Below, in pieces: positions 4,530 through 58,603 of a stretch of DNA of 64,000 bases. The stretch spans positions 1,736,001 through 1,800,000 of the forward strand of contig CAJVGD010000005.1 in assembly GCA_910890315.1 (NCBI GenBank), in the 5' to 3' direction. Below the pieces are notes generated by a model. The model saw nothing but the letters and a program-made list of their open reading frames with translations. It had not been told where the DNA came from and made no database searches. Each line of letters opens with the position of its first letter. The stretch's first letter is position 1. The translations under genes were made by a program, and so were the position numbers. This DNA is from Serendipita indica DSM 11827. Its lineage: Eukaryota > Basidiomycota > Agaricomycetes > Sebacinales > Serendipitaceae.

Positions 4530-7100
4530 ATGCATTCCAAGCCCGAAGGACAGCACCCGGCGAGCAAGGCCAATCCCTTCCAACTCCTGCTGGGCGGAAA
4601 CGCCAATAACAACATCCGTCCCAAAATCTACCGCCCCGATGACCCTCGCAAGATCGTCACGACGTTCAATGTGGTCCGGTTAGAGCAAATATTGCGAATG
4701 TATGGCCTCTTGGACGCAAGGAACAAGGAGAACCTAGAGTTTTTACGGAATGGATTTCCGCTTGGTATTGCCAGTGGATGGACACTCCCCAAGCGAATCA
4801 TCCATCACAACCACGGTTCAGCCCTTCGGCACCCGGAAGCCATCATCAAGGACATCAAGAAGGAAGAAGCGGCTGGACGCTACTCGCGGGCGTATGAACC
4901 TGATGAGCTCGAAAGGATCATCGGACCTTACTTCTCCGCTCCCATGGGTGTAGTCGACAAAGACAAGTGGAACCCAAACGGGGAGAAGCGAGTCATTCAC
5001 GACGATAGCTTTCCATTCAAAGGGCACGAAAGAGCGCTCAACACTCATTGCATATCACAAAGCGACCAATATTCGTCAACCGGCTTCAAGTTAATGTGCG
5101 ACTTCATCCTCAACGCTCCCCCTGGATCCAAAGCCTGTGTGTTCGACGGCAAGTCTGCGTACCGCATGTGTCCGCTACGAAGAGAGGACCAGCATCTCAC
5201 ATGCATCTATTGGGACGGCAAAGTTCGCGTCGACCGCGCACCGCATTTTGGAGGTACGCACGTTCGAGTATAGTATCTCCATTAACTGCTGGTTAGGTGT
5301 TAATGCCGGTGTTCCCCATGGAAGAATGGCGGATATGTTGCACCAGATACTCAAAGCGAAATGGCCACATCTCATCCCGGCAAAATGGCAAGACGATCAC
5401 GTCATTATCCAAACCCCAGTCAAAACCACTGGATGGGCCAACTGGTTGGGCATAGGCAGTCACGATGGGATGACCATTTCTCTAGGGGACATCAAGCGTC
5501 TCTTGAAAGAAATTGGCTATCCGACAAAGGATGAAAAGGATCAAGAATTCTCGGACCATTTCACCTATGTCGGCTTCGATTGGGATATGCCCAACCGCAG
5601 CGTCACGCTCACGGACAAGGCAAAGAAGAGCTACCTCGAGCGAGTTGAGAGACTCTTGGCCGAAAAGACAGCATCCCTTGAGCAGATTAACGAACTGCGG
5701 GGACAGTTGATCTGGTGCTGCTCGGTCATCATCGACGGCAAGGGCTACACGCGCTCCTTTGTCAAGGAACTGGAAATTCGTAAAGGCATCCCGCAAACAA
5801 GGCAGATAAGACTCGAAGAACGAACGATCATAGACTTGCAGTGGTGGAGGTCCGCTTTACAAGACTGTACCCCTCGCATTTTACAGTTTCAGAAGCCAAT
5901 TTCGGACAAGTGGAACGTCTATGTGGATGCCAGTGGATGGGGATGTGGCGTTGTAATCAATGGCTGCTGGGACAGGTGGCAGTTGCGAGATGGATGGGAA
6001 ACAAATGGTCGAAATATCGCATGGGCTGAGGGAGTAGCAATTCAGCTTGGTATTCATATCCTCTTTCGACATTATGATCTGTCGCCTGGCACCCACGTCA
6101 AGATCTTTTCCGACAACCAGGGATTCACAGGAGGATATAACAAAGGAAATTCACGGAATATATTCCAAAACGACGTAATCGTGGATATTCGACGAATGTT
6201 GAAGGAAAGAGGGTGCGAATTGACGTTGGAGTATATCCACACCTCACAGAATCCGGCCGACAAGCCATCTCGTGGAATGGACGCAGCGTATGGCACCAGG
6301 CAGTCATGGTCGAAAGACCCATTGCCTTCGAACCTGCAGGGTATTTTTAGATCAAAAGGTTTGTATGCATATCACTTGTCACTTGTACTCATGCGACTAT
6401 AGAAATCCCAGTCAAGGAACCTGTTGTAGGACAAGGCCTCCCACCTCCTTTGGCCCCGACCAAGTTGCATAATATCACCAAGGTGGAGTCGGAGCCTACC
6501 ACGAGACCTGTCAAGTCGACGGGTCCTACATCCACTAAGACCAAAGCTGACGACATCCAACCCGAGTCCAGCTCGAGAAAGCGTATGGCTCCTTCTCCAA
6601 ACACTGAGAAAAAGTGTGAACCCCCGGCTCTCATGCTGGACTTCTGCCCTTCGTCTCCACATGTCAAGGGGAGAAAAGCCATTACCAACGGGACTAGTAG
6701 CAATGCGACGAGGACTGGGACCATCGGTAAGAAGGACCCATCGCCTGGTTCAAACCCACAAGCTTCAGCTGCTACCAGCACAAAGAAGATTGGTACTCCG
6801 TCGTTGATGCTGGACTTTGGGGTACCATTATCCGACGCGAAACCAGCTGCAGCTGCGAGACCAAGCCATGAGGGACGCAGGACGTTTGGAGGACAGGGGG
6901 TGCATCAAGCCCTCGAACGGCACCAAAGGCTGCCTCTGGAGCTGCAGAGTCGAATCTACCACCAAGCAAGTATGCCAGCGCTAATGCGACGTCGGTTCGC
7001 CATTTATCCAGTAACTCCCCGGCAAATAGTTGCCATGCGAGATCATTGGCATTTGAAGCCATTGTACCGCTTGTCCGAGGAGCCCTCAACCCCCAAGTAG
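4530..7100 (+). mobile_element. Reverse transcriptase/RNase H retroelement relic (DIRS-like)
   Basis: The left two thirds (about 4530-6400) encode a reverse transcriptase followed by an RNase H region in the order typical of DIRS-like (tyrosine-recombinase) retroelements. The RT core shows a 'FDGKSAYRMCPL' type block and a 'WQDDHVI' catalytic-type motif. The RNase H part shows 'VYVDASGWG' and 'FSDNQGF'. A Ser/Pro/Lys-rich reading frame follows at 6450-7100, with two short LMLDF repeats. No gag, recombinase, integrase or terminal repeat was seen, so the copy looks incomplete. The coding stretch uses more than one reading frame (about one change) and is otherwise rather open, which suggests a fairly young fossil. 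The DIRS assignment is tentative. Confidence 0.65.
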
Positions 7101-25382: not shown

Positions 25383-27166
25383 ATGGAAGACGCGACCCCA
25401 TTCGGCGACGCGTCTTTGTTGGATGCAGATGGCGTTTTGGAGCGGTGGTACGTGCTTCTACTTGTCTCGAGCTTTTTTCAACGCGTCAAAATAGGCGTGC
25501 TTCGACCATAAAGCAGGAAGGTGTGATCCTCTGTCTGCATGGCTTTTCAACCTCTAACAACGACACGATAGTGCTGTTAAATGCAATACTGAAAGAAAAT
25601 AAGGACTTGAAACAAAGACTTCAATCATTGGAACTGGAAAATTATTCCTTTCGGACGACAATTCAGGCAATGAAGGCTAGTGAGGAGGAAAGCTCAAAAG
25701 CCAAAGAACTGTTGCAAACAGAAATTTCGAATGCATCTCAGCGAATCTCTCAACTCGAGGTGACGAAGACTAAGAGCTCTCTGTACTGCGCTAACCCCGC
25801 GCAGGGCGATTCAAATTTGGTCCTCGCTTTGCTCGATGGCGACGGGTACATTTTCACTAAAGAGCTTTTGTCTCAAGGAGAATCTGGTGGAAGGGAAGCT
25901 GCTGTATGTTTCACCCGTTACGCCGCTTCCGTCACTAATGAGGCAAGTCGAGGCTCAGTACCGGAATTCTCCATCATCTTCGTGAACAACCCAATTTCCC
26001 ATCAAACCCTATTCTATGGACCATGATATTCCTGTCCAAGGATCGTCTGGAGCACGTACTTTCCAAATCCGTAAATCTCCTTCGCTGCGATTTGACATTT
26101 CCCTCTTACATTTTTGAAAGGACACCTGTAATCCACATCAATTTAAGCACTTCATCAAGGGTTTTTCTCAAGCGCACCCGCTATTTTCATTTGTAGAAGT
26201 CGGACTCTCCAAGGAAGCAGCGGACTATAAAATAAAAGGAAAGCTTACAAGCCAGTTGAGGCAATCAACTGACAATCAAGTAGATCACATGAACAAATTT
26301 ATTGGAATACACAAGGTTTACAAGGTCGTCGTTGGAGGTGGGTTTGGACATTCAGTTTGCGCAATCATTTACAGAAATCTAGTCGACCATGACAACGGTT
26401 ATAGTGCAGCCATAGCTGCAGAACTCACTGCTGGCTTCAAAGAGAAGTTGATTCTCCTGAGAGCTCATAACGTCGTTGCCCGCGACATTTCGTCCCTTAC
26501 TCTCACTACATTCAGCATCGATGGTCTCTTTATGCCTGACAAAATTACCATTTGTGACACGTCCTCGCCACGTATTGTTGACAACTATAACCAGAATAGC
26601 CTGGGTCTAGTCCCCGAAAGTTTACCCTCCCGACTCGCTGCACACAATAATCCTGGCAATGGTTCTTCGACAACTTCGAGTCCACGAACGAGAGAGGCGA
26701 AATTAGTAAGTTTCTATATATTAGGTCGACCTCTACTTAAAACGTCGTAGCCTAAACGTTTGCCTTTATTTCCATCCCTCTGTTTCTGACTAACTTTTCC
26801 AGTTGATCCACCAGCATGCAATCTGTTCTATATAACTGGAAAATGCAATAACATTGAGGTCAGATTCAAGACTATCCAATGACGGTTGGTAATATCCCAT
26901 ACAGAAATGCAAATTTGGTCATTACTACCAACTTTCGGATGCGCAGATCAAGCAGCTCGCTACTGGGGCCAAAAAGCAACCGTGCAAATACATGAATGAA
27001 GGCAAGTAGTTAGGTTGCGCACCTGAATCGTTCTGAGTCTCAAGCAGGAAAGGCATGCCACTTGGAAAACTGTATATTCGGACATGCATGCCCACAAGGA
27101 GCCAGGTGCTCGTTCTTAGCGGCTGGAAAGTGCAAGTTCAGAGGGCCAACCATGCATAATGTATGA
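25383..27166 (+). CDS. CCCH zinc-finger/DGDG-domain protein, array copy 1
   Basis: About ten exons. The order is an acidic start (MEDATPFGDASLLDADG), a coiled coil ('LKENKDLKQRLQSLELEN'), a domain beginning 'VLALLDGDGYIF' and including 'LWTMIFLSKDRLE', 'FIKGFSQAHPLFSFVEV' and 'VDHDNGYSAAI', then CCCH fingers ('CKFGHYYQLSDAQIKQL', 'CIFGHACPQGARCSF', 'GKCKFRGPTMHN'). I place it in the basidiomycete family often labelled DUF7923; the fingers suggest RNA binding, but no function is established. Odd introns: the one at 26239-26283 begins GA (GAAAGC) and is 45 nt without a stop, and that at 27002-27047 begins GC. Divergent from SNRNP40. Confidence 0.82.
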
Positions 27167-27426
27167 TACAGGCAAGGACCCGTCATGGAGGAACAAGATT
27201 AGGCTTCGCTGCCCCGGAAGGAACCCAAGGGCCTTGTACTCATATGCTGTTCTATAATGCCCACTTTGTGACATAATGAACGATTTTGAGGCGAAAGAGC
27301 GATCTATGTAACTCTAACTCATTCCGTTCCTTGCTCGCGCGAGGTTGTCCTCCGCCACGTCCGCTCGCCTGGCGAGTTGTATTCTCCTCGTAGACTCTCA
27401 AACACCAGAACTTATTGAGAATCAAT

Positions 27427-29170
27427 ATGGATGAAAACATTGGCTCTGATCTACAGCAAGAATGGTACAGCTCGCCAGTTTTGATACCGTTCTGCCCTCT
27501 TACGGCCTTGGTACAGGCTCGAGATACACGACAGGCACGAGAGTGTGTCTGGGGTTATATCACATGAAGACAGCTAATGGTTTCCAGATGTCATACTCCG
27601 AATCCTGGAAGAGAATCGAGTGCTTCATGACAAAGTGGAACAGTTAGAGTCCGAAAAGTTTACCCTTCAAAAAGCGTTTTCGAAGTTGAGGCAGGAAGTT
27701 GAGGATAGCGAGTCAGCAAAGCGAGACCTTCAATCCAAGCTAGCGTCCCTGACGCATAGGGAGGAGGCGAGCATCCACCCAAAGCCACTCTTTACTCTGA
27801 CATTCTCTAGGAAATTGTCCTTACTTTACTCGATGGAGATGGTTACATCTTCGACAGAACACTCTTATGCAAAGGAGAATCTGGAGGACGAGAAGCCGCG
27901 GTTTGAATCCTCCTGGGATATAAAGCATCACTGATACTCAATGTAGCAAATACTCACAAACGGAATAATGAGATACATCGCGAAGCAGCCTGATAGACCA
28001 TCTCAAGTTGTTCTATGGACGATGTGGTTTCTATCCAGGGAGAAACTAGAAGCAACACTCGTCAGATCTGTACATCCAAGTCACCGTTTTGTATCTAGAC
28101 TGACGGCCCTCAAGGGTGTATGCTCTCAGGAGCAGTTTCGATACTTTATGAAAGGCTTCTCAAGCGCACATCCTCTCTTCTCAGTGGTTGACGTTTCAGA
28201 TGGGAAAGAAGCCGCAGACGCCAAAATACGAGGTGTCTAGTTTCACGCAACTCATCTTACACTGACGGCGCCACAGAGCACTTACGGAAATTTATCAAGC
28301 ACAGAAGCTTCTATCGCGTGATACTGGGAGGCATGATCATTTCCACCACTATTATTTAGCTTTCTGATCCCATTCATCTAGTTGACCATGATAACGGTTA
28401 CGATGTGGCGATTTCCGCTGAGATGACGAACGGTTATGCGAATCGAATGGTACTCCTCCGGGCTCATTCCAATATTGCCAGACAAATAGAAGCTCTACAA
28501 CTCGGTAGTATGTCTATCGATGACCTTTTCCTGGTGGATGGCCTGGGCCCGGGCCCAAGCAGTGTAGTCTTACCGCAACGCGATCCATGGTCTAGTTTCA
28601 AGACAAGAGCATATGCCTCACCAGTCATGGAGAAAAGAAAATCTGTTTATGGTTCCCCTCCGTCTCCAATCGATACCTTGGCTTCCTGGAGAAGAGACAA
28701 AGCCCCTGTAAGCTCCCTTGCGCAAAAACTAGCGAATTAACATTTAATGCTCTGCAGACCCGTAAGGGATAGAATAACACAGGTTTTCTTCTGATCAATC
28801 TCAACTCGCGTAGGTGATCCGGCACCTTGCCATGCCTTCTACCTCACCAAACGATGCTGCGATAAGGTGTGTTCGCAGCGTTGCACGAGGATACCATCCC
28901 TCATCCATCTAGGACTGTCCTTATGGACATGATTATGAACTCTCAGAGCAGGAACTTCAAAAACTTATTCAATGGGCAAGAGCCCAGCCCTGCAGCTACG
29001 CGACCGAAGGTACGTTGGCGAAGAGCTCCCCTTGCTACTACTTATTCAGCATAGGCGAACGCTGTCCGCGCTTGGATTGCATATACGGACATAAGTGCTC
29101 CAGAGGTTCGGACTGCCCTTTCCGGTGGAATGGAACCTGCAAGTTTACTGGTCCTGATTCGCACGATTGA
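27427..29170 (+). CDS. CCCH zinc-finger/DGDG-domain protein, array copy 2
   Basis: Same layout and intron positions as copy 1: MDENIGSDLQQEW start, coiled coil ('ILEENRVLHDKVEQLESEKF'), 'IVLTLLDGDGYIFDRTLLCK', 'FMKGFSSAHPLFSVVDV', 'VDHDNGYDVAISAEM', a Pro/Ser linker, then fingers 'CPYGHDYELSEQELQKL' and 'CIYGHKCSRGSDCPF' with 'GTCKFTGPDSHD' at the end. The intron after the coiled coil (27764-27810, 47 nt) has no GT: it starts GAGGCG and ends CTCTAG, exactly where copies 1 and 3 have GT-AG introns. The intron at 28331-28381 starts GC. The intron before the fingers is about 120 nt and holds an extra short open stretch, so that junction is less sure. Confidence 0.8.
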
Positions 29171-29203
29171 AGCATGTGCTTTTCAATTTACTGATGGAAT
29201 ATT

Positions 29204-29220
29204 ATTGGCTCTGATCTACA
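29204..29220 (+). repeat. 17-bp remnant of a duplicated array unit
   Basis: Seventeen bases beginning ATTGGCTCTGATC are identical to 27439-27455 in the first exon of copy 2, 1,765 bp upstream, close to the spacing of the array genes. Here the match sits in the 5' flank of copy 3, whose own start (29397) lies downstream with different sequence. It looks like the edge of an old tandem duplication. Confidence 0.6.
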
Positions 29221-29396
29221 CCGCTGGTTAGGAGAGAGGCCTTCTGGTCAGCCCAAAATGTGTACGCGGTGCGGAGCCGTCGAGGCAGCTAGGCGCCTGG
29301 CTGGTTGTCCCATTTCTTCGCTCACTCAAACCCGACCACATTATCGACTTCAGAAGTGCTTTCCCGTCATTCTGCTCATATTATAGGACTAAATCA

Positions 29397-31191
29397 ATGG
29401 ATCCTGGAATACAAATGCATCATGTCGAATCTGGCGGAGATCCGCTGGCACAATGGTGAGCTATCTGTGGGTTCACCTTCATATTTAACAATTGTAGGAA
29501 TATATCTGTCAACGCTATCGATGGTACGTTCTCCACCGCAATGGAGACTGGCTAACGTCTTGCCAGTCCTTATTCGCAAGCTTGTCCAAGAAAACGCTGA
29601 ACTTAAGGCGAAGATTGAAGACCAGGAGTTCCAGAACTATACTTTGACGACCGCATTGAGTACGACTCGTTCGTCGTTCCGAGAAAAGGAGAGCCTGGCC
29701 AAGTCTTTGGAGGTGAAACTAGAAGAGATTCAGCGTGAAGTCACAATTTCAAATGCTAGAAGCCAAGTAAGCGCTTTGATTTATTAATAAAGTTATGAAG
29801 GGTCTCATGGGTCGCCTAGGCTGAGCGAAATCTGGTCATGACACTGATTGACGGTGATGGATACATCTTTGACCGTGAACTTCTGACCAGAGGTGAAGAT
29901 GGAGGAAGGGATGCAGCGGTTTGTCTTACTCGCCCATTAGCGAACTTTGCCTCACTACCAAAAGAAAATTTTGAGCAATGGAGTGATGAAGCATCTGTCC
30001 AAAGAAGCAAATAGGCCAGCTTCGCCTGATCTATGGACCATGATATTCTTATCCAAGGACAAGCTCGAAGCGGTTCTTTCACGCTCGGTTGGTTCATTTA
30101 CCCTCAATTAGGAGTCACTTCTAATCAGACTAGAGTACTTGCACCGCAGAGCAATTCCGTTTATTTATCAAAGGGTTCTCTCAAGCACAATCTCTCTTCT
30201 CCTTTGTTGAAGTTGGTCCCTCCAAGGAAGCTGCGGATCACAAGATCAAAGGTGCTCGACTAGAAGGTGCTACTACTCCTTACTGACATTGTTGCAGAGC
30301 ATTTGAGCAAGTTTATTGGAAATCCGAAGATATTCAGGGTGATCCTAGGAGGTACGCATCTATAGTTGACTATGCGAGAATCTGAACCGGTGAAAAGTGG
30401 ATCATGATAATGGATACAGCTCTGCGATATCTTCAGCTATGACCAACGACCCTGATCAGAGGCTCGTGCTCTTGCAAGCTCACCCAGACATTGCTAGGGA
30501 CATCGCCGCGCTAAACCTCCCAATGTTCTCAATAGATACGCTCTTCAAAGTGGATAAGCTTACGACCCAGGCACCTTCGCCTCCTACTTCGGTGCCGACT
30601 CAGGTGGCCATTGTAGCAGGGTCTTATGCTGCGGTAGCTGGTCCCCCTAAGAGTCCTCCAGCTAGTGTGGCAGTCACAATCAAGAAGATTACGTATAGTC
30701 CCGAGAAGAACACGATTGGTTGGACTAAAGGAGCAATAGTACGCTCGCCCTGTTGTCCTATACTCTACTGACATCCTGATAGAAACGTGAGTGAACCTTT
30801 GGTTACTAATTACCTGCTTGACGCATCGATAGGAAATCCTCCACCTTGTAACGCACATTATTTGATTGGATACTGTAATTCCCCAGTGCGTATTAGAAGT
30901 GCTCCACTCCATATGCTGACAGGAACATGTAGGATTGCAAGTATGGTCACAACTACGAGCTGTCACATGCAGAACTCTCGCAACTCGCTCTGGGAGCGAA
31001 ACAACAGCCTTGCCACTATGCCAACGACAGTGAGTATACCGACTGGAATTTTCCTAGTGACGAAGCCTGGGATAGATCAAACGTGCTGGGTTGAGAACTG
31101 TATCTATGGGCATGAATGCCCTAGAGGACGTAACTGCACATATCTCTCAAGAAAGACGTGCAAGTTCATTGGGAAAGGAATGCATGATTAA
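29397..31191 (+). CDS. CCCH zinc-finger/DGDG-domain protein, array copy 3
   Basis: Starts at ATG 29397 (MDPGIQMHHVESGGDPLAQW); this start is chosen because it gives the same intron phases as copy 1 into the coiled coil ('LIRKLVQENAELKAKIED'). The DGDG domain follows ('LVMTLIDGDGYIFDRELL', 'KILSNGVMKHLSKEANR', 'FRLFIKGFSQAQSLFSF', 'VDHDNGYSSAISSAM'). A Pro/Thr/Val-rich linker then leads to fingers 'CKYGHNYELSHAELSQL', 'CIYGHECPRGRNCTYL' and 'TCKFIGKGMHD'. All introns I could place are GT-AG or consistent with it. Function unknown; RNA binding inferred from the fingers. Confidence 0.8.
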
Positions 31192-31363
31192 TTTGTGTAG
31201 TTTCCCAATGAGAATATACCATTCAATTCTGAACCCCGTTGGTGAAGGGCCGAACAGGGCGGCCAGCTCTTTCCCGACCACAGCCGTTCTCCCCAGTCTG
31301 CAGCTCGGAGCTAGACTCCTGCACTCTTTATTTACCAAGAAACTCGTTACAGTACGATATATC

Positions 31364-33021
31364 ATGTCCCATCACGATCTTTGCTCGACGCCCACAACAC
31401 GCCCCCTCGACAACTGCATCCAACGCTGGAACCATGCGACCAAAGAACAGGAAAATATCCTCAATGATCTCGTGACTCGAAATTTGGAACTTGAAGCCCG
31501 AAATGCCGAACTTGAGAAACAAATCAAGAAGCTGGAATGGCGCCTCCGGAGTGACCAGGCCGCGGCAGACGCCAAGGAGAAGGTACTCATAGGCGAGATT
31601 GACTTCTTACGCAGCGAGCAGGAGAGCTTCAAGGCAAGTATTCTTTGGTTATGTCGAGCCCGCCTGACTCAGCACCGGGTTCCATAGTCCGAAAATCCCC
31701 TCATAGCGTGCCTTTTGGACGGGGATGGATGCATCTTCTCCGAACAATATCTTTGCCAAGGCTACGAGGGGGGCATTCAGGCGGCCCAGGCATTGTCAGA
31801 GGGACTGACAAGATACCTGCGCACATCGAAGCAACGAATGCCTACCGGCTGCCGCATCTTGACCATGCTTTTCCTCTCCAAGAGTGGAATGGAGGCTGTC
31901 TTATGCCGAAATGTCGGTCTCTCGTCACCAGTCTTGCCTGACTAACTCCCGGTAGCACATTTGCACGCTGGAGCAATTCAGAGCATTTATGACAGGATTC
32001 GGTACTGCACATCCACTCTTCTCTGTAGTAGATGTAGGGATGGGAAAGGAGGCTGCCGACTTCAAGATGCGTGGTAGGTTGAGGCTGTCTTGCTCGAGCT
32101 GGGTAGCTTATAGCTCTAGACTATCTCAAGGTATTTGTGCGTCTCCCTCAGACGTTTAGGGTATTCTTCGGTGGTTAGTACACACAACTGGGCTCCACTC
32201 TTCCTCACATCAGCTCAGGCGGACACGATAACGGCTATGGACCATGTCTGACGGAATTGAAAACCGAAGGACTTCAGGAAAAGATTGTGGTCCTTCAATC
32301 TTACACGCAGCTAGCGCGTGAAATTGCGTTGTTGAAGCTACCAGATTTGATGATCCCAGATCTTTTCATGCCGGAAAAGCTAGAAAGGAGACCAGCGTTT
32401 GCTCACATGCATGCAAACACAGATCCTACGCCGACTTCGGACACTCTCTACGCCGGCTCTTTCAAGAGTCAGAAGAAGAAGCGAGGCAAGAAGCGCAATG
32501 TGCTCTCCATCTCTTCCATCGACGAAATTATAATTTCTTCCCCAGTATGTGCCAGAGCGGCCTCGCAAATGTTCACACTAACTCTTCCTTTAGGCCACCG
32601 GGGCATCTTCAATATCGCAAACAGATGAATCCGAGACAAGGCTTCCTTGCCTCGCACATCATTACTCCCCCCGTGGCTGCTTAAACTTTGTTACTTGTCG
32701 CTATGACCATAGTGATGAGCTAGATGCTACGCAGGAAGAGCAAATGAAAGATCTTGCACGTTGTACCCCATGCGAATATGTGAACGAAGGTGCGGGCAAT
32801 TTCGATCGGTGCTCTCTGGCTGATGACACTCCAGGTCGTGAGTGCCCTTCGGCAGGTATGTATTATGCTTCGCTCCTCTGAATAGCTATTCATTCTTTGT
32901 AGTTTGTCATTATGGCCACAAATGCCCCCGTGGATCACGCTGCCAGGACTACCTTATCGGTGTCTGCAAATTCGTGGGCCTTATGATGCACCAGGACGAA
33001 GAGATTATCGACATGATCTGA
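31364..33021 (+). CDS. CCCH zinc-finger/DGDG-domain protein, array copy 4 (diverged)
   Basis: The most different copy. Its coiled coil is encoded with the start in one exon (MSHHDLCSTPTTRPLDN, then 'EARNAELEKQIKKLEWRLRS'), so the two short 5' introns of the others are absent. A GC-AG intron (31634-31687) leads to 'LIACLLDGDGCIFSEQYL', 'RILTMLFLSKSGMEAVL', 'FRAFMTGFGTAHPLFSVVDV' and 'GGHDNGYGPCLTELK'. A basic linker with a KKKRGKKR-type cluster (possible nuclear signal) precedes the fingers ('CRYDHSDELDATQE', 'CHYGHKCPRGSRCQDY', 'GVCKFVGLMMHQ'). Copy 4 looks like the ancestral or most constrained member, but this is inference. The next gene starts 233 bp downstream. Confidence 0.8.
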
Positions 33022-33254
33022 CTCCGTTTATTGAGGGTAGTCCTTTCCCTTTGACGGTTTTTGGTTGCGTGCCGGAGCTCTCCTTTTGTTGCCTCTACTC
33101 TGTATTTCTATCACCTTTGTCACTGCTATCTACCAGCTCTCTGGTGTCGTATGTACCCTGAAACGTTACATGCCGATTCGCCGTGTTGGAATGGAGCGGA
33201 GCCTGGCTTTGTCCACCAACCTTGCTTTCACCGACAACAAGGCCGCAACTCTAA

Positions 33255-35459
33255 ATGGCGAAAAAGAAGAAATCTAGACCACCAGTTGACTCCAATGCAT
33301 CAGCAGAACTTTCGGTTCCTCCTGCACCAAAGCCGGTTGTTGATCCAAAGTGGGTGTGGCCACCCTTTCCGAGCCCGCCAGAGGGCGTCACGATCATTGG
33401 ATTTCATCAATTCGAACCAAAGGGTATCGTTGTCAGTCTAGGGGATGAGCCAGAAGTCGACGGCGAGGGCATTCGCACCGTCGAGTTGCTCGCCCGCCAC
33501 ACCGTCGGCGGTGGAGGACATCGGAAAGCCAAAGTGAAGAAGGGTCCATTTGCAGACATCACGGATGAAGAGCTCAGAAAGCTTACATGGGATAAGAGAT
33601 GGGAGCTCGGTGAGCATCTCAGAAAGGCGCAACCGATGGATCCGTGAGTCTTTCTGAGCGTAAGGCGAGCTTAGTGAAACTTTATGCTCAGAATGGAACC
33701 GCTGGAGGAGAGATTCAAGCAATCCGTTCAGCAGTTTCTGCCAAATAGACAATGGGATCCTAGTCGGCAGCAGTTGTGGGACCAGGTTCGTGCTGCAATA
33801 CATTTTGCTTGTATCTGACTTCTTTGCTCACAGTGGCGCCTGTACGTCGGGATCATTTCTGGAGTGAAGAAACCGCAAGGCCGCAAATCGCGGCTCCCAG
33901 AGGATGACGAGCGGCCATTGGTAGAATTGAATCCAGGTCTGGAAGACGATATGAGCGAGGAGGAAGACTTAATGGAGGTCGACTCTCAAACTCCAATTGA
34001 AGGCCAAGTGGAAGAAGGTGATGCCAGAAGGCTCCAAGAACGTCTTGCCCGTGATTATGCTAAGTATGAGAGGATGATTGCCGCAAAGGACGAGCGCACC
34101 TTGTTTTGGGTGACCGAGCCGGAGAAGGCAACCAAGATCTTCCTTTCATCTCATTTCCGTGACAGAGGACTTATGTGGTGCGTATTATTGGTTCAATTCA
34201 CACTTATACCCATTATGCACAGGAGCGAGCCTCAAGCGCGGGATATGCCACTACTCCTCTGCTTCTACCTGAGCTTCGTCCTTCGCAACAAGATGTTTCC
34301 CGAGAAGGACTTTGTTCGTGGATACGAAAAGGCTCTTGTCGTTGCACAACGTGCATGCAGCGAGCTTCTTTATACCTTTCGCATCTCTCGCGCTTTGCCC
34401 GATAAATGGGGGCACGCTTGCAAGAACCAGTGGGGCCAAAAGTACCATCATCCATTTGAGCTCTACTTCATCAACTCCTCTCAGGCCAATCATTCCGATG
34501 GTGGATTGGTCGAACCACATATCGAGCACGAAGCGAAGCTTGTGGCCGCAAACTATGATCTAGGAGACCAAGAAGTGGAAGAAAAGGGAGATGTGAACAA
34601 TTCATCAAACGATGGATCTGCAAATGAGGCATTCCTCGAAGAAGTCACTGCAGAAGATATTGAGCCGGTCTCTGTTCCGATCGAGGAGTCTCCAGCCATT
34701 GAACAAAACCACGAAGCAGCAGCAGAAATCGAGCCAACCAAAGCCCCGTCTGTTTCAGGCTGGGGGGATTGGGATGCAGACTTTGATCCTTCACGCGCCT
34801 CTGACCTCGCGAGGAACTGGGGAATGCAAGACGAGATAGTTGAAGACACCGTCGAGAATGCGTGGGGTGAGATTGTCCTCGAAAAACTCACCGATGTCGT
34901 CGATGAAACCCTTGCATCCTCGCTGATTCGATCCGCGATCCCTATCCGTGCAGAGAAATCAACGCGGCGCATCATCGACATCCTCCCACCTGACCCCACT
35001 TCGTCAAACCCAATGACGGCATCGCTGGCAACACTCGTCCTTCAGCCATGGCCGATACCGGACACAGACCCTGATGCACTTGTCCAGCCACCCGTGATGA
35101 TTGATATGGACCCCGAAGATGCAGTCGTGCAAGCATCAAAGCGCAAGGCGCGCTCCTTTGATCCTTCTAAGCACGATATACGCGTGTATATCCACAAGGA
35201 GGCTGCATCTGAGTGCAAAGTCGGCATGGGGGTCGGTGCGGTTTGGGTCCAGGTTGACAAGCGGGTCGAACCAAAGGATGACGAGGAAGAGGCGGGAGAG
35301 GGAAAAAGAAAGAAAGGCAAGAGTAGTGATGACGAGTGGTGGTACGTGGAGAGGCTAGAGTGGGCTATTCCAGGGTATTGGACCGTCGGTGAGGCTCACC
35401 GTGATTTTACTCGTCACGAAAATCACCCAGAGTACGCGTACGCTGGGTTCAGCGACTAG
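33255..35459 (+). CDS. Arb1-like protein (Argonaute siRNA chaperone subunit), tentative
   Basis: Four exons (33255-33643, about 33692-33785, 33833-34178, 34224-35459) give roughly 690 aa, hydrophilic and without membrane segments. A Lys-rich start (MAKKKKSRPP) is followed by a region where 'RQWDPSRQQLWDQWRLYVGI', 'FLSSHFRDRG' and 'LSFVLRNKMFPEKDF' lie in the order of the Arb1 family (basic helix, FLSS block, N-terminal part of the ARC-subunit domain). The acidic middle contains Trp-Gly motifs (GWGDW, NWGMQ, AWGE) of the kind that bind Argonaute pockets. A Trp-rich C-terminal segment ends the protein. Arb1 in fission yeast binds Argonaute and restrains slicing. The identification is by eye and moderate. 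The third intron is 45 nt and stop-free. Confidence 0.5.
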
Positions 35460-35743
35460 AGGAGATCCACATACGGTTTCGTTTCTTGGTTTACAATCAA
35501 ATTTGACTGATCTGTGCTAAGTCAACTATGTAAAAAGACAACATTCGTTTACCTCCGAATATAACAGCGTCTCTGAGCTTATACCAATCCGAGTGAGCAT
35601 CCTCGAATCGAGCCATTCGGTACAGACCTAATAATGCTTCTGGAAAGATAATACCACTAGGCGACCTTAGAGTCAAAAGCAACGAAGGTCAAGTAAACTC
35701 CGTATTCCAAACTCGAGGTGACTCTATATCTACGAATGATGAA

Positions 35744-37511
35744 TCAGTACTCCAAGGATCCCTCAAGAATAGCGGTGAGATGCTCCCTGCCATCTTCTCC
35801 CGCAACATCGCCAATGCCTGGCGCAAGATCCAAAACTCTACGTTGTGGGATAGTGCCGTCGACAAGTCGCGGCACGTCGTCTTTTGTATATCCAACCTTT
35901 TTGAGTCCCCGTGGAACGCCCAAGCCGTCCAAAAAGGCGGCAATAGCATCGTAGATTGCTGGTCCGACCTCTGCATCGGCCAAACGCGAGATGGCATTTT
36001 CGTCCAGTTTCGAATAGTCTTTGAAGATGCCGAGCACTTCGCGGTGTCGGTCCGGTGATGAAGGTGCGGTGAAGCGGAAGACCGCGGGGCCGGTAAGTGC
36101 GACGCTGATACCGTGTGGGATAATTGGGTGATCAACGGCATACCCAGGCATCTTGAATTTTGGACCAGTCTTGTTCAAACCGGAAATCTACTCCCTCTGG
36201 TCAGAAGGGGTGTGGCAGTGGTTATTGAACCAGAGACGTACCGGATAGCTCATACCGTGTGCGAGATGCACTCCTGCCGAGCCAAACCCAATCCCTGCAA
36301 ATGTTGACGCCAGGAGCATTTGGCGCTTGGCATTACGATCCTCTTGGTTGCGAGAGATCCGTGGGAGGTTTTGAACGGCTTCACGCAGTGCCCAATGAGC
36401 GAATACATCGCTCACAGGGTTACTTCCCTGATACGCCGGCCGGAGTTTGGGGTTGGCTGGCCGCGGTGAGCGTTCATAGTACGGGATGGCGGTATAACTC
36501 TCCAACGCGTGGAACAGCTATTCATTATCAGACCACAGTATCATTAATAGTGAATTAGATAGACGTACGACGTCTAGACCAGCACTAATGTGCACTTCGC
36601 GCGGGCAGGAGTCGGTGCTGTAGGTATCGACGACGCCAAGGATAGGTCGCAACGCACGATTTGCGATACCAGTCTTGAAATTGCGCGACGGAATATCAAG
36701 AATGGCTGTTCCAGTCGTTTCCGAGCCAGTACCCGCTGTCGTCTATCAAGCTTGAGAACCAAATGGCAGTCCTTGATGTACTCGTACCGGAATAGCGACC
36801 AATGGCCTAAGTGTCTCCGTAATAGGGAGACCTTTGCCTACTGGTGCGTTGATAAAGTCGTATAGATCTGCATCTTTGTAGACTGTGAAGAGATTGGCAG
36901 CTTTGGCGGTATCAATGACTGAGCCACCACCAACGGCCAGGAAGTGCGAGAAGTCATGCTTTCGAGACCAATCGATGGCTTCTAGCCAGCTCTTGTCTGT
37001 TGGCTCTACGGCGACGTTGTCAAACACCTCATACGGAACGCCTTCGGCCTCTAAAGCTTGTACAGCCTAGAAGAGCACTTTAATACCATGAAAGAGATGG
37101 ATGGTGACTACTTACGGTTTTTACTGGATACAATTTCGCGACGTTGGGGTCCGTGAATAGACCGACCTGGGGGCGGTCAACACGTGCTTGACGTGTAACT
37201 GGTTAGTACCTTGCGGGCCTTCATATTCTTGAAATCCATGCCAACTTCTCGGGCGACACCGTCTCCGAATCGCAAGTTGGCTGCTGCGACCTGTTGAGGT
37301 CAGGGGGTTGGTTGTTCTGGTGAGATTGATATACCTCGAATGCATACTCTTTGGTAGGCATATCTACAGGTGTTGCAAACTTGCGCCATGCATTGACGGC
37401 TGCCATTGGACCAGCTCTTGCTCCTGAGCACGAATGGCATGGACATAGACCATGTCTACTGGCGTTGAGGAGACGCAGAATGGACGTTCTAGATGCTGGA
37501 GCTGGTGACAT
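35744..37511 (-). CDS. ADHFE1: Hydroxyacid-oxoacid transhydrogenase, iron-type alcohol dehydrogenase, mitochondrial
   Basis: Multi-exon minus-strand gene. An Arg/Ser-rich N-terminus (MSPAPASRTSILRLLNASRH) resembles a mitochondrial presequence; the start at 37511 is the first ATG in frame. Family blocks: 'GVAREVGMDFKN', the NAD-binding 'FLAVGGGSVIDTAKAANL', 'PTTAGTGSETTGTAILD', 'AGVHLAHGMSYP' and 'DHPIIPHGISV', the last two holding the metal-binding His residues. ADHFE1 enzymes couple oxidation of 4-hydroxybutyrate to reduction of 2-oxoglutarate, giving succinate semialdehyde and 2-hydroxyglutarate. Every intron junction I checked is canonical and in phase, and the C-terminal exon runs to the TGA at 35744. 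A plain iron-ADH substrate range cannot be excluded. Confidence 0.9.
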
Positions 37512-37885
37512 GGAAATACTGGCAATGGTAGAAACCAAGATGGTCCGGCAGGTTGGTCACCGGACTTGGTCGAACGGGGGAGAGGGACGGAAGCTATTGC
37601 GGGTCCTATTTTCTTTTGGGATTTGACGCGGCCGCCGGGCCAAGTGTCTTTCGCCATCTCTACATCGAAAGACGAAATCAAACAGTTGAGAGGAAAAATA
37701 TACACTCGAGACTAATGTCCGGCTCCTTTCACATCTTGGATCCACCTCCGTTGTCTACCCATCAGCGCCCAACCAGAATGCTAACGATAATACTGTACAG
37801 GCCATATGGTGCCCCTGGGCTCGTTGAGCAATATTGGTCATCAGCCTCCTCTTGACGCTCGCCATCTCCCCGAGTTTATCTCAAA
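37512..37885. promoter_or_regulatory. Shared divergent promoter region, ADHFE1 / ARO8
   Basis: The 374 bp between the two start codons, which point away from each other, hold no other gene. It must carry both promoters. I see no clear TATA box or operator. Confidence 0.5.
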
Positions 37886-39875
37886 ATGTCCCAAGAGGAG
37901 AAAAACGAGCTTCCAAAGTCGATTGACTTGTCGCATCATTTATCAGACCTCGCCAAGGCCCGCAATGTATCCCCTCTCAAAGGTTCCCCACTTTCTGATC
38001 AGACGGCGCTCCTAACACTGGTCAGGCTTCTTCAAGTACTACACCCCAGATGTTCTAGCACTTGCAGGAGGTGCGTTCGACTGTCCACTCTCTCCCCCTT
38101 CCCTATTTACATGGCTTGTAGGCGTTCCACACCCGGACTACTTTCCCTTTGCAACTCTGAGGCTTCCACGCTACCCGTAGATACATATTCGTCCACACCA
38201 GGGACAATAACCTCTCCGTCTCCTCTCGCATGGCTGTGGAATCTTTTCTCAAGCCCGAGCGCCGCACGAACTACCAAGATTTCTGTGCCAAAGTACGTCT
38301 CCGACCCACTGAATGAGGTCAATCTTGCAACTGCACTCCAATACGGTAATAATTTTGGCCCATTTGTCTATTAAGCGTTGACGAAATGTAGGAATGGCCA
38401 CTGGCGTTCTGCCGCTTCAGCAGTTTCTGAGAGATTACTCTCGCATCTTCTATAAACCTGGGTTCTCCGACTTTACGACACTCGTTCATACAGGCAACAC
38501 GGACGGGTGGTCTCGCGTTGTCTATTCCTTGCTGAATCCCGGTGATAGCATGCTCGTAGAGGTACGTCTAGAACCCGTCTGAAGCAATGTATTTACACAC
38601 GCAAGGAATGGACGTACCCCTCTGCACTCTCAGCTGCCCTTCCTATTGGCATACACACCGTCGCCGTCCCTCTTGACAGCAAGGGCATGCGCCCAGATGC
38701 GCTTCGTCATATTCTTTCCACATGGGACTCAAAGTCTCGTGGCTTCAACCGCCCACGCTTGCTCTATACTGTTCCCATCGGGCAAAATCCAAGCGGTCTC
38801 ACCACGGGCGAAGAACGCAAGAGGGCCATTTACGAAATCTGCGTCGAGTACGATATCATCATTGGAGAAGATGATCCATATTATATCCTTCAAGAGGGCG
38901 AGTACATTGCGCCAGACGTACGCGCGAAACGAGCCAATGCTCGCAAGGAAACAAAGAAGAAGACTGATGAAGAAGAGATTCGGGCTTTTGTGGAGAGTCT
39001 GGAGCGTAGCTATCTCCATTACGACTACCAAGGTCGCGTAATCCGACTGGACACGTTCTCAAAGGTCCGATTCTTCTTGCATATCAAGTTGACCTACTCA
39101 CGGGCTTTCGTAGACAATTGCACCAGGATCTCGTCTTGGTTGGTTCACCTGCAACCCCATGTTCGCCGAACGTCTCGAACGTGCTGGAGAAGTCTCCACC
39201 CAAGCGCCATCAGGCTTCACGCAATCAATGGTCACACAACTCGTCGTCAAGACTTGGGGGATGGCAGGCTATGTGCGATGGCTGCGTGGGTTGCGAGCAG
39301 AATACACCACGCGCCGGGATACACTCATCGACGCGTTTTGCAAAGCCATGGGTGTTGAGCTGGTCACAGAAGAGTACAGGAATGAAAAGCCTGGAGGGGA
39401 TGTCTGGGATGGCGCGACAGTGTGGACGGCTACTCTTACTGCCAATGCAGGCGCGGTGAAGGGTGCCAGGGGGTGGAAAAGAAAGTTCGCGTGAGCTTTG
39501 TACCGCCAACGTCGGGCATGTTCGTCTGGGTCAAAGTCGACTTTAGCGATCTCTCACCGCCGATTCACGTCCCCGGAGAGGAAGAAAACGAAGGTGAGAC
39601 CTGGAATCCGCTGCATTTATCTCTGTGTCATTATATAATGAATGGTATGCTGACGGGATGTAGGCACGCATGAAGGCCGGTTCTGGGTCACCCTCGCCAA
39701 GGCTGGGTTGCTGATTCTACCTGGGTGGGTGTTCCGCGGTGAAAAGGAGCATGCTCCTATCGATCCGAACAAGTACGCACACTACAGAATCAGCTTTAGC
39801 GATTCGACAGTCGATAATATGGACAAGGCGGCAAAGATTTTTGCCAAGACGCTTCGAGAGTATTGCTCCCAATGA
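37886..39875 (+). CDS. ARO8: Aro8-type aromatic aminotransferase (PLP fold type I), with two apparent frame changes
   Basis: Blocks in order: 'ALAGG' then 'VPHPDYFPFATL', 'VNLATALQYG', 'HTGNTDGWSRVVYSLLNPGD', 'LYTVPIGQNPSGLTTGEERK', 'IIIGEDDPYYIL', the PLP-lysine site 'LDTFSK' followed by 'TIAPGSRLGWFTCNPMFAER', and 'VSFVPPTSGMFVWVKVD'. These are the alpha-aminoadipate/aromatic transaminase signatures; the enzyme moves amino groups between aromatic amino acids or 2-aminoadipate and 2-oxo acids. Two junctions do not fit: near 38156-38162 the frame shifts by one base after 'PFATL', and near 39469-39473 (a run of five G) it shifts again before 'VEKKVRVSFV'. No intron can explain either. They are either consensus errors or recent loss of function; everything else is intact. 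Confidence 0.8.
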
Positions 39876-40062
39876 GGAAGAGAACCTCATGAGGGCTTGG
39901 ATAGTCACTGCATTCCTAGAGAACGCGTGCTGATATAGTTGCATACGTTGACACACACGCATAATAATAGAGCATTCATTCTGCGAAAGCGAGTTAGGAG
40001 TCAGGGACTCATGCAGTCTTAGTTGGATAAAAGTTCGATCTTCAACCTCGCCGCTACACTCA

Positions 40063-41287
40063 ATGTCTTCGACGAGGAGACACTCGGTGTTCAGACCATG
40101 TATCGACTTGCATAATGGGCTCGTAAAGCAAATTGTCGGTGGAACGCTCTCTGATGTAACGCCATCCGAGCTCAAGACAAATTTCGTGTCGAGGTCGGCG
40201 GGTTCAAGATGTGCGTTAGGGCCGATTAACTGACGATGGACAAAGTAAGACTGCTGGGGAGTTTGCGAGACTGTATAAGGAGCATAATCTTCGTGGAGGG
40301 CATGTCATCAAGCTCGGGCCCGGAAATGATGCTGCTGCCGAAGAGGCACTTACGGAGTGGAACAGTATGTAGTATGTATGTCCGAGTTTACGCGACCTGA
40401 AAATTGGGTAGATGGACTTCATATCGGAGGAGGCATCACGCAGGACAACTGTCAGCAATGGATAGATGCTGGAGCAGAAAAGGTGACTTCGTGAACAGAC
40501 CTATTCTAACTAGTCCGTCTCATGGTATTTCAACAGGTCATCGTCACCTCGTATCTATTTCCCTCTGGCCAATTCTCCCTCGAAAGACTGCAAGGGATAT
40601 CCGCGGCAGTAGGCAAGGAAAGGTTGGTCGTGGATGTCAGGTATATATTGGCAAATTGTACTATACAATTCTCTGAGTACGCTAGCTGCCGCCGAAGGAA
40701 CGACAAATGGATTATCGCGATGAACAAGTGGCAAGATATGACTGACATGGAGGTGAACAAAGGAACGTTATCAAGTTTAGGCCGTGATATCTCTCTGAAT
40801 AATCGCAGAATCTCTTGACCTACTCGCCGAATACTGCAGGTATGTGGCTCCTATTGACCCGCCCGACTCTGGATGAGATTCGATAGTGAATTCTTGATCC
40901 ACGCTGCCGACGTGGAGGGCCTATGTCAGGGTATCGACGAAGAGCTGGTAACAAGTGAGCAAACTGGCTGACCACTCACCGGATAAGATTCCTCATGGGT
41001 TCTAGAGCTGGCGGAGTGGGTGACGATTCCAACTACGTACGCAGGGGGTGCCAAAGGCATGTTTCACATTCGCTTATTTTCAGCCTCTGAGTCGTAGTAG
41101 ATATCAGCGACCTTGACCTCGTCGACCGTCTGTCTCAAGGCAGGGTTGACCTCACGTTTGGAAGGTATGCGATATGCTCTTAGTATGGTCTCTGTCTTAC
41201 CCGCATAGTGCGCTCGACATATTCGGAGGATCGCTCGTACGCTTTGATGACCTCGTCGAGTATAATCGAAAGTACCAAAGTCTGTAA
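40063..41287 (+). CDS. HIS6: HIS6, ProFAR isomerase (histidine biosynthesis)
   Basis: About eight short exons. [19 protein letters not shown] opens the protein, then '[11 protein letters not shown]', '[18 protein letters not shown]', '[20 protein letters not shown]', '[18 protein letters not shown]', '[17 protein letters not shown]', '[20 protein letters not shown]', 'TYAGGAKDI' and '[17 protein letters not shown]'. This is a full beta/alpha barrel of the HisA/HIS6 type, which converts ProFAR to PRFAR in the fourth step of histidine synthesis. Two introns have non-GT donors: 40763-40808 starts GAACGT (GA-AG, 46 nt) and 41057-41100 starts GCATGT (GC-AG, 44 nt). A GT-AG alternative for the first exists (a 34-nt intron starting GTTTAG) but adds residues that fit the family less well. 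Confidence 0.9.
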
Positions 41288-56627: not shown

Positions 56628-58603
56628 TTAGTACAGGACGATCGAGTCAAAGATGATATTGGGTGAGAGGAAAGTATCACCCGAGGATCCGCTCGCTACG
56701 TAGATGGTAATGGTATTCTTGCCGGCGATCAATGTTCCAGATGGGATGCTGTACTCGAAAGCCTGGTTATTTCCTCTCCACGTGCCGCGTGTGACGCCTC
56801 GGCTGTCGATTTTGGTAGGTGCTGTACAACAGTATCAGCTTCTATTCGCAGATGTACTTTCACTGGGGGGGAGCGAAAGTGGCATGGACTTACCTGCTGG
56901 TGTCGAGCTGGTCCATGAGTTGACGGTGATATAAGGCCGTCCGCCTGCAAAGCTCGACGTGATGCGAATACGGATTTTTCGTGCACCGATTTGAGACGAA
57001 GTCGCTGTCCATATAATCTTGTTACCGTTGTTGACGGAGATGAATTGGGCCATAGGCCATTGCGAGGCCGAGGAGGAACCAATGGTGTAGGTAACGGGAC
57101 CCCAGCTACTCATGCGTGAATCGGACCTGTATGCAATTGAGCATTGTGAATATGAATGTCCTGTCAAGGTGCTTACGGGTGCATTGTCTCGATCTTGTCG
57201 GCACTGCGAACCCCATTAGTATATGGCAAAGGAAAGGAGATATACATACTTGAGGAACCCACTTGGCGTACCATCGCTATTTCCAATACTCCAAATGGCA
57301 TTTGGAATACTTTCATTTGACGACAGATTGACCGTGGTCGTCCCGCCCGCACTCACACTTGCAGAGCCAGTGCCAACTTCGAGCTCGCCCTTGAACAACG
57401 TCACGGTATATGTTCCTGGTTTCATGGCGGGAGAGGTGTAGGAAGATCCGCTGGCAGTCGTCCAGTATTGGGCGGCCGAGTTCTTAAAGCCAACGACGAC
57501 TGGGTAGCCGGATTGGACATTTGAAATCGACCCGGTGACTTTACCACGACCAGAGGCGGCGACGTAACCTTTGATGCTCAGAGAGGAGAAGAAGGACGTA
57601 TCGAGCGATGCCGAAGGGGCTGAGCCAGATGTGAATACCATTGCATAAGGACCAAAGAACCCGGTCCTATGGGATGTCAACGTAGAGCCTAAGTGGTTGA
57701 CGAAACGAACCTGTAAGATTCTCTGAGAGAGTGTGAGTGAGAGCACAAAGAGGAAAGGACAGACGTACGTTTGCTCGTGGTTTGAATTCATGTCTGTAAG
57801 CTCTTAGCAAGGTAGAGCAAAAGCAAGAAGATACATACACCAATATAGCTCTTGCTGATCGCTACCCTGATTGTTTATATCGCGCATGAAAGGACCGCCA
57901 GAGCTCGTCTCGTAGCCTGTTCCAGGGATGACCTGATATTTTAAGCCACAAAGTATCTCTCATAGATGTAAACGCACCATGTAGACACCGACGCCGCTAC
58001 CAGTAACTCCGTGGACCTGATCACCAATGAACCGTTTGCTGGAGTAAAACTTGCTCCTTGTCTGTCCATTTACATTATACACATCTGATCCCTCGATTGC
58101 TGAACCACCTTTGATATCAGAGGCAGTCACTCCATTGGGAAGAGCACTTCTGGACAGTCGGGCAATGAAACGGAGTTCTCCGACGGATGGTTCGGCGGTA
58201 ATGTATGTGCCAATGTAGAGCGTATTCTGACCATTGACAACGACGTAGGTCTGTATAAGAGTCGAGGTCGTGAGTGTCACCCTGGCATAATTGCCCGATA
58301 CGCTCGTGGTGGTCGTCACGGATCCTAGACCTGAACCAATATGCGTAAACTTTGACGAGTCCTGGAGTTGCTTCGAGTTGTAGACGATTGAGTTGATGTC
58401 ACCGGTTGAGGAGTTGACTATTCGCAGGCTTTGATCAGAGTTTACTCTGAAAAACAACCAAGAGGAGACGTACTCTTGATGACAAGACCCGCACCACTAT
58501 CTACTGTGACCGTTCCACCAGAATTTGTGATGCCAAACGCCGCAAAGACGCTGGCAGGGAGGGCAAAGAGCGTAAGGGCGAGCTGAACGACCGAAACCTT
58601 CAT
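56628..58603 (-). CDS. Rhamnogalacturonan lyase, polysaccharide lyase family 4
   Basis: Signal peptide ([20 protein letters not shown]) then '[19 protein letters not shown]', '[18 protein letters not shown]', '[20 protein letters not shown]' and '[11 protein letters not shown]' of the catalytic beta-sandwich, '[19 protein letters not shown]' of the fibronectin-like domain, and '[19 protein letters not shown]' and '[19 protein letters not shown]' of the C-terminal carbohydrate-binding-like domain. PL4 enzymes cleave the rhamnogalacturonan I backbone of pectin by beta-elimination and are secreted. Many short introns; the first (about 29 nt) is very short and its borders are uncertain. Converges with PEX16 at a distance of 96 bp. 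TATA element (58646-58653, GGATATAAACC on the minus strand) about 45 bp upstream. Confidence 0.9.

Follow-up and report, generated by a model that had tools for sequence, protein, structure and literature searches.

The Locus and Its Gene Models

We analyzed a 64,000-nucleotide stretch of the genome of Serendipita indica DSM 11827 (GCA_910890315.1, contig CAJVGD010000005.1, positions 1,736,001 to 1,800,000 of the forward strand), hereafter the window, in which an earlier note had proposed three introns that begin with GA rather than GT and end with AG. Two of them were placed in an array of CCCH zinc finger genes and one in a HIS6-like gene. The array, at 25.4-33.0 kb, consists of four tandem genes, with a DUF7923 domain (PF25540) and a tandem CCCH finger (PF25543) in the scanned copies 1 and 3. 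The HIS6-like gene encodes a eukaryote-type HisA, and its spliced model has an uninterrupted reading frame from start to stop, giving a product that scores 394.5 bits against TIGR02129 (cut-off 229.3), also matches PF00977, and aligns with the yeast enzyme 2agk at E=1.3e-86. The three stretches themselves were described correctly in their coordinates, in their lengths of 45, 47, and 46 nucleotides (nt), and in their ends, TAG, TAG, and CAG, and branch-like sites do precede the acceptors (CTGAC in copy 1, CTGAC in copy 2, and CTGAA in HIS6). It is also correct that GAAAGC (copy 1) and GAACGT (HIS6) differ from GTAAGC and GTACGT only at +2, these GT forms making up 3/54 and 7/54 of the curated GT donors. 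Our analysis suggests that these three candidates are of different kinds, and that the one in HIS6 is the one most probably spliced at GA.

Splice sites were compared within a table of 61 introns (54 GT, 5 GC, and 2 GA), curated by hand and not automatically. This set is confined to the array copies, HIS6, a rhamnogalacturonan lyase gene, and an iron alcohol dehydrogenase gene, the introns of the last two being taken from the models of an ab initio finder; the first two introns of array copy 2 were not settled and were left out. Introns are short in this sample, with a median of 46 nt and a range of 42-72. The donor context score covers the donor flanks apart from +1 and +2, and its matrix was built from 32 of these 54 GT introns, among them other introns of HIS6 but not the one at 40763; the lowest context among the 54 GT donors is -1.13. 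The spliced aligner was allowed any donor at a penalty, with GC penalized less than GA, as in the finder. In low-similarity stretches it placed odd donors in copy 1 (25406, 25751, 26725, and 26856, the last of which is GA), copy 2 (27558, 28560, and 28730), and copy 4 (31646), and these were either discarded or moved manually to GT or GC donors, with the introns of the sister copies as a guide. The copy 1 model is thus partly hand-set; once the 45 nt are taken out, its frame is open from start codon to stop codon. The finder predicted 134 introns in the window; it fuses neighboring genes (array copies 2-4 appear as one "gene") and missed the last exons of copy 1.

Table 1. Coordinates in the window of the genes, introns, and splice sites discussed; a slash marks an exon-intron junction.
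Feature	Position	Strand	Description
Array copy 1	25383..27166	+	DUF7923 and tandem CCCH zinc finger gene; PF25540 and PF25543 matches
Copy 1 segment	26239..26283	+	45 nt, former or present intron: AAAG/GAAAGC...ACTGACAATCAAGTAG
Array copy 2	27427..29170	+	GC-AG introns at 27767 and 28331; from spliced alignment to copy 3
Copy 2 intron	27767..27810	+	GC-AG, 44 nt, phase 0: GAG/GCGAGC...CTCTGACATTCTCTAG; replaces the earlier GA-AG intron at 27764-27810
Array copy 3	29397..31191	+	11 GT-AG introns
Array copy 4	31364..33021	+	GC-AG intron at 31634, corresponding in position to the GC-AG intron at 27767 in copy 2
HIS6-like gene	40063..41287	+	10 exons; 7 GT-AG, 1 GC-AG (41057-41100), and 1 GA-AG intron
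HIS6 decoy GT donor	40753..40808	+	GAG/GTGAAC, 10 nt upstream of the HIS6 GA; 56-nt, frame-shifting route
HIS6 intron 5	40763..40808	+	GA-AG, 46 nt, phase 1: AAAG/GAACGT...CTCTGAATAATCGCAG/AATCT
GC-AG introns	27002-27047, 27767-27810, 28331-28381, 31634-31687, 41057-41100		Appear frequent
Retroelement-like region	4530..6402		Open reading frames resembling a retroelement with reverse transcriptase and RNase H (judged by eye from translations)
Rhamnogalacturonan lyase gene	56628..58603	-	E=2.1e-166 to 1nkg; eight GT-AG introns in the draft model

A Candidate GA-AG Intron in HIS6

Spliced alignment to yeast HIS6 yielded nine introns, including the GA-AG intron at 40763-40808, which carries GA at +1 and +2 and a terminal AG in this assembly, and homology demands that splicing here leave ...NK/ESLDLL... 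in the protein. The same region was compared with intronless relatives, namely the best 80 of 243 from one bacterial-genome scan, which are 51-59% identical to the fungal protein in their best segment. In 80/80 of these relatives, the W of NKWQ and the E of EFLIHAAD lie 22 residues apart, exactly as in the product of the GA splice. From this agreement in spacing, together with the higher scores of the GA product over those of the alternatives, it follows that the cut is fixed at the mRNA level, and by this comparison the position of the intron and its exon junction are set at 40763-40808. The same mRNA can be obtained from GA-AG, GG-CA, or AG-GC cuts, among which only GA-AG has an AG acceptor.

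HisA relatives at this level of identity to fungal HIS6 occur in many bacteria; according to their record titles, the best 80 of 243 include Desulfobulbaceae, Verrucomicrobia, Fibrobacteria, and others.

Apart from +2, the intron has the features of its neighbors: a length of 46 nt, a U2-type donor context, and a CTGAA branch whose A lies 10 nt before the end. The donor, AAG/GAACGT, has a context score of 4.96, which equals that of the best of the 54 GT donors (AAG/GTACGT of copy 2, the only one to reach it) and is attained by 0.02% of the plus-strand positions in the window. When the finder was given 14 extra donor dinucleotides, one at a time, at a prior of 0.001, only GA was used, and it was used once, at 40763.

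We enumerated the in-frame alternatives that begin with GT, GC, GA, or AT at or after 40690 and end at an AG before 40838. These comprise GT introns of 34 nt (GTTTAG) and 25 nt, GC introns of 118 nt (with loss of conserved residues) and 28 nt, and two options that delete conserved residues, one from a second GA donor (115 nt) and one from an AT donor (73 nt). Splicing at the GTTTAG donor (40775-40808), the longer of the two frame-keeping GT routes, would give NKGTLSKSL instead of NKESL, and its product still exceeds the TIGR02129 cut-off, at 385.9 bits. However, 34 nt is shorter than every curated intron, the donor context of -2.48 is below those of all 54 GT donors, and the four added residues produce a spacing of 26, found in 0/80 relatives. 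The GA product outscores the 34-nt product in 80/80 relatives (median 15.5, minimum 2), and we regard this route as very improbable. Therefore, the proposal of a GA-AG intron in HIS6 is borne out at the sequence level, with the junction set by homology and the 34-nt alternative disfavored.

Three further candidates were rejected. The frame-shifting 56-nt route from GTGAAC gives a product that scores below the GA product in 80/80 relatives (median 48.5, minimum 30); retention of the intron loses the frame, with a stop soon after; and an obvious pseudogene is not compatible with a spliced frame that is open from start to stop and scores 394.5 bits. The decoy GAG/GTGAAC (40753-40762) is a strong-looking site, with a predicted U1 duplex of -7.0 kcal/mol. 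It was chosen by the finder when only GT and GC donors were allowed, and this finder broke the HIS6 protein.

Is the GA Donor of HIS6 Used?

Several observations weigh against the use of this donor by the spliceosome. At a prior of 0.01, the finder calls five GA introns (40763 and four others), compared with 0-3 for each of the other dinucleotides, and at this prior AT or CG can also sit on the HIS6 acceptor; for these reasons we take the run at 0.001 to be the informative one. U1 is predicted to pair only weakly with the HIS6 donor, at -3.0 kcal/mol against a median of -5.15 kcal/mol (52 GT rows), with some GT donors weaker still; the same duplex value, -3.0 kcal/mol, is obtained for the GC donor at 41057 in this gene. 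Further, the DNA would look no different under a consensus error or a loss-of-function allele, and the entire question turns on a single base in HIS6.

Under this last alternative, the living fungus either has GT in HIS6, the A at +2 being a consensus error, or carries a broken HIS6 allele that is complemented by another nucleus or copy. GAACGT is one base away from GTACGT, a frequent donor here, and the rate in Ganoderma lingzhi predicts only about 0.05 GA-AG introns per 134. On the other hand, the spliced alignments of the four array copies and of HIS6 needed no frameshift, and thus the consensus looks good in these genes; HIS6 is otherwise open from end to end; and, at the usual assembly error rate of about 1e-5 per base, an error at one particular donor base would be rarer still than a GA-AG intron. 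We consider an error or a broken allele to be unlikely, while giving it far more weight than the GTTTAG route. Since the expected number of GA-AG introns, though low, exceeds that of one-base assembly errors, and since the strong context fits a tolerated mismatch at +2, it is likely that the GA donor of HIS6 is really used.

Array Copy 2 and the GC Donors

The GA donor proposed at 27764 in copy 2 had to be given up. A GC donor located 3 nt downstream keeps the phase and the acceptor, adding one Glu to the protein, and the spliced aligner, free to take any donor but penalizing GC more mildly than GA, selected it under both settings. The GC reading (GAG/GCGAGC) has a context of 2.91, equalled at 1% of plus-strand positions, whereas the GA reading (GAG/GAGGCG) has a context of -1.73, equalled at 35%. 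What did hold is that the sister copies have GT or GC introns at the same position and phase: this site is occupied, in phase 0, by GT introns in copies 1 and 3 and by a GC-AG intron, AAG/GCAAGT, in copy 4. The comparison relies on the aligner for copy 3 and on hand-set boundaries for copies 1 and 4, whose models are open from end to end; the copy 4 boundary at 31634 is also used in the protein of the ab initio finder. The GA and GC readings have phase and acceptor in common, yet the nearby GC donor, its far better context, and the GC-AG intron at the site in copy 4 make the use of GA at 27764 scarcely credible. By these sequence criteria, the copy 2 intron is an ordinary GC-AG intron and the GA reading a mis-set boundary.

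GC-AG introns account for 5/61 of the curated set, 4/5 of them in the array, while 1-2% is published for fungi. Five in 61 has P 0.0004 against 1.0% (fungi) and P 0.005 against 1.85% (Ganoderma), in a set that is small and hand-curated. The ab initio finder used GC in 10/134 introns under a 3% prior. A raised GC-AG frequency is therefore a lead, not a result. Within the same hand-curated set, the contexts of the seven non-GT donors are better than those of the 54 GT donors (Mann-Whitney p about 0.002). One could imagine that this genome reads +2 in a relaxed manner, with GC-AG at several times the usual fungal rate and GA donors functioning in HIS6 as well as in copy 1, perhaps via variant U1 or U6 and with strong flanks compensating, although we think such a general relaxation improbable.

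Micro-exons between two short introns were also observed in the array, at the same place in three copies: 4 nt at 30783-30786 in copy 3 (AAAC), 4 nt at 28758-28761 in copy 2 (ACCC), and 7 nt at 26751-26757 in copy 1 (CCTAAAC). Copy 4 has a single intron there.

Array Copy 1: Retained Segment or GA-AG Intron

In copy 1, the 45-nt segment can be read either as an intron or as coding sequence. Its length is a multiple of three and it has no stop in frame, such that retention would simply add 15 amino acids, GKLTSQLRQSTDNQV. Only a minority of introns are of this class: 7/54 of the curated GT introns in the window are divisible by three and open in frame, and Table 2 of PMC7072748 gives 9.2% for fungal GT-AG introns at large. 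Because the segment belongs to this class, loss of the donor with retention is favored by a factor near 8-11. The finder limited to GT and GC keeps the segment as coding, and with GA allowed it did not call the segment an intron at a prior of either 0.001 or 0.01. Its mean codon score is 0.042, compared with 0.112 and 0.096 for the flanking exons and -0.208 for GT introns, 5/54 of which score as high.

There is also evidence on the other side. Copies 2, 3, and 4 all have GT introns at this site, in phase 1. DUF7923 scores better with the segment removed, 156.4 vs. 142.2 bits, though some loss of score is to be expected from any insert of 15 residues. The splice signals are intact (a CTGAC branch, a TAG acceptor, and a donor, AAG/GAAAGC, whose context of 3.70 is reached by 9/54 GT donors), and this favors GA-AG splicing or a recent loss. 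Moreover, the GA sites of copy 1 and HIS6 both read AG/GAA, matching the flanks described for GA-AG introns of two animals. It is therefore possible, if doubtful, that copy 1 also contains a true GA-AG intron and that A at +2 is tolerated at more than one site in this genome. Against this, retention is costless to the frame, and copy 1 is one of four tandem paralogues in which constraint may be weaker. The earlier claim that copy 1 contains a GA-AG intron is thus sustained as to the sister introns at the site, while retention of the open segment is at least as likely as its removal. On balance, we favor the view that copy 1 keeps the 45 nt as coding sequence in at least part of its mRNA. An open segment means that splicing is not required, which does not show that splicing is absent.

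Overall Interpretation

Taken together, we hypothesize that the GA-AG intron of HIS6 is genuine, that the copy 2 intron is GC-AG, and that copy 1 lost a GT donor and most likely keeps the 15 codons in at least some of its mRNA, a combination that we hold to be rather more probable than its denial. The earlier argument that three hits at one donor position would be a coincidence is reduced to one firm case (HIS6) and one ambiguous case (copy 1), and is weakened because copy 2 has been removed.

In HIS6, U1 would pair with the strong flanks (AAG/G, A at +3, G at +5, and T at +6), the CTGAA branch and the CAG acceptor are normal, and the mismatch at +2 would be tolerated, such that the mRNA reads NK/ESLDLL; use by the spliceosome would then proceed through contacts outside +2. 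In copy 1, a GT donor would have been lost, most simply by a change of T to A at +2, and the open segment, divisible by three, would have stayed in at least some of the mRNA, lengthening the coding sequence by 15 codons.

Should splicing of HIS6 take place at GA, then a housekeeping enzyme relies on a donor that a gene finder restricted to GT and GC cannot call, and the gene would offer a clean test, selectable by the need for histidine, of how far strong flanking U1 pairing can offset a mismatch at +2. In copy 1, an intron would be caught in the course of becoming coding sequence. These cases would carry wider weight only if a genome-wide count shows a relaxed reading of +2.

Comparison With Known GA-AG Introns

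GA-AG introns were said to be very rare in fungi. The rarity stands, but they have already been documented there, and the finding is less surprising than was claimed; HIS6 is probably a new case within a known rare class. Our literature searches, none of which was made for HIS6 by name, turned up no account of a GA-AG intron in HIS6 of a fungus. The closest parallel is Ganoderma lingzhi, for which Table 1 of PMC11590231 lists 35 GA-AG introns among about 92,100 (0.038%). It is likewise a basidiomycete, with a GA donor and an AG acceptor, but its introns were annotated manually with the aid of full-length transcripts and RNA-Seq, whereas the HIS6 intron is placed by homology. In Fusarium graminearum, an ascomycete, GA-AG is named among the minor nuclear intron types, and Sanger sequencing confirmed seven non-canonical genes, which may or may not include one with GA-AG (PMC3577648).

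Outside the fungi, intron 12 of SYMRK in Trema orientalis changed from GC to GA and is about 95% spliced (PMC10668435). As supposed for HIS6, a single base has changed at +2 to give GA in a needed gene that is otherwise intact, but this gene is that of a plant and its ancestral donor was GC. GA-AG introns are also found in human genes (PMC4176328) and in Blastocystis. In FGFR, a GT located 6 nt upstream of the GA 5' splice site is reported to be needed for its use (PMC4176328, PMC7072748). HIS6 also has a GT near its GA donor, in this case 10 nt upstream (GTGAAC), on which the GA donor may or may not depend. Finally, Eurytemora affinis and Oikopleura dioica have thousands of supported GA-AG sites (PMC7072748), compared with one or two among the 61 curated introns here, and their sites have AG upstream and A downstream, as do those of HIS6 and copy 1.

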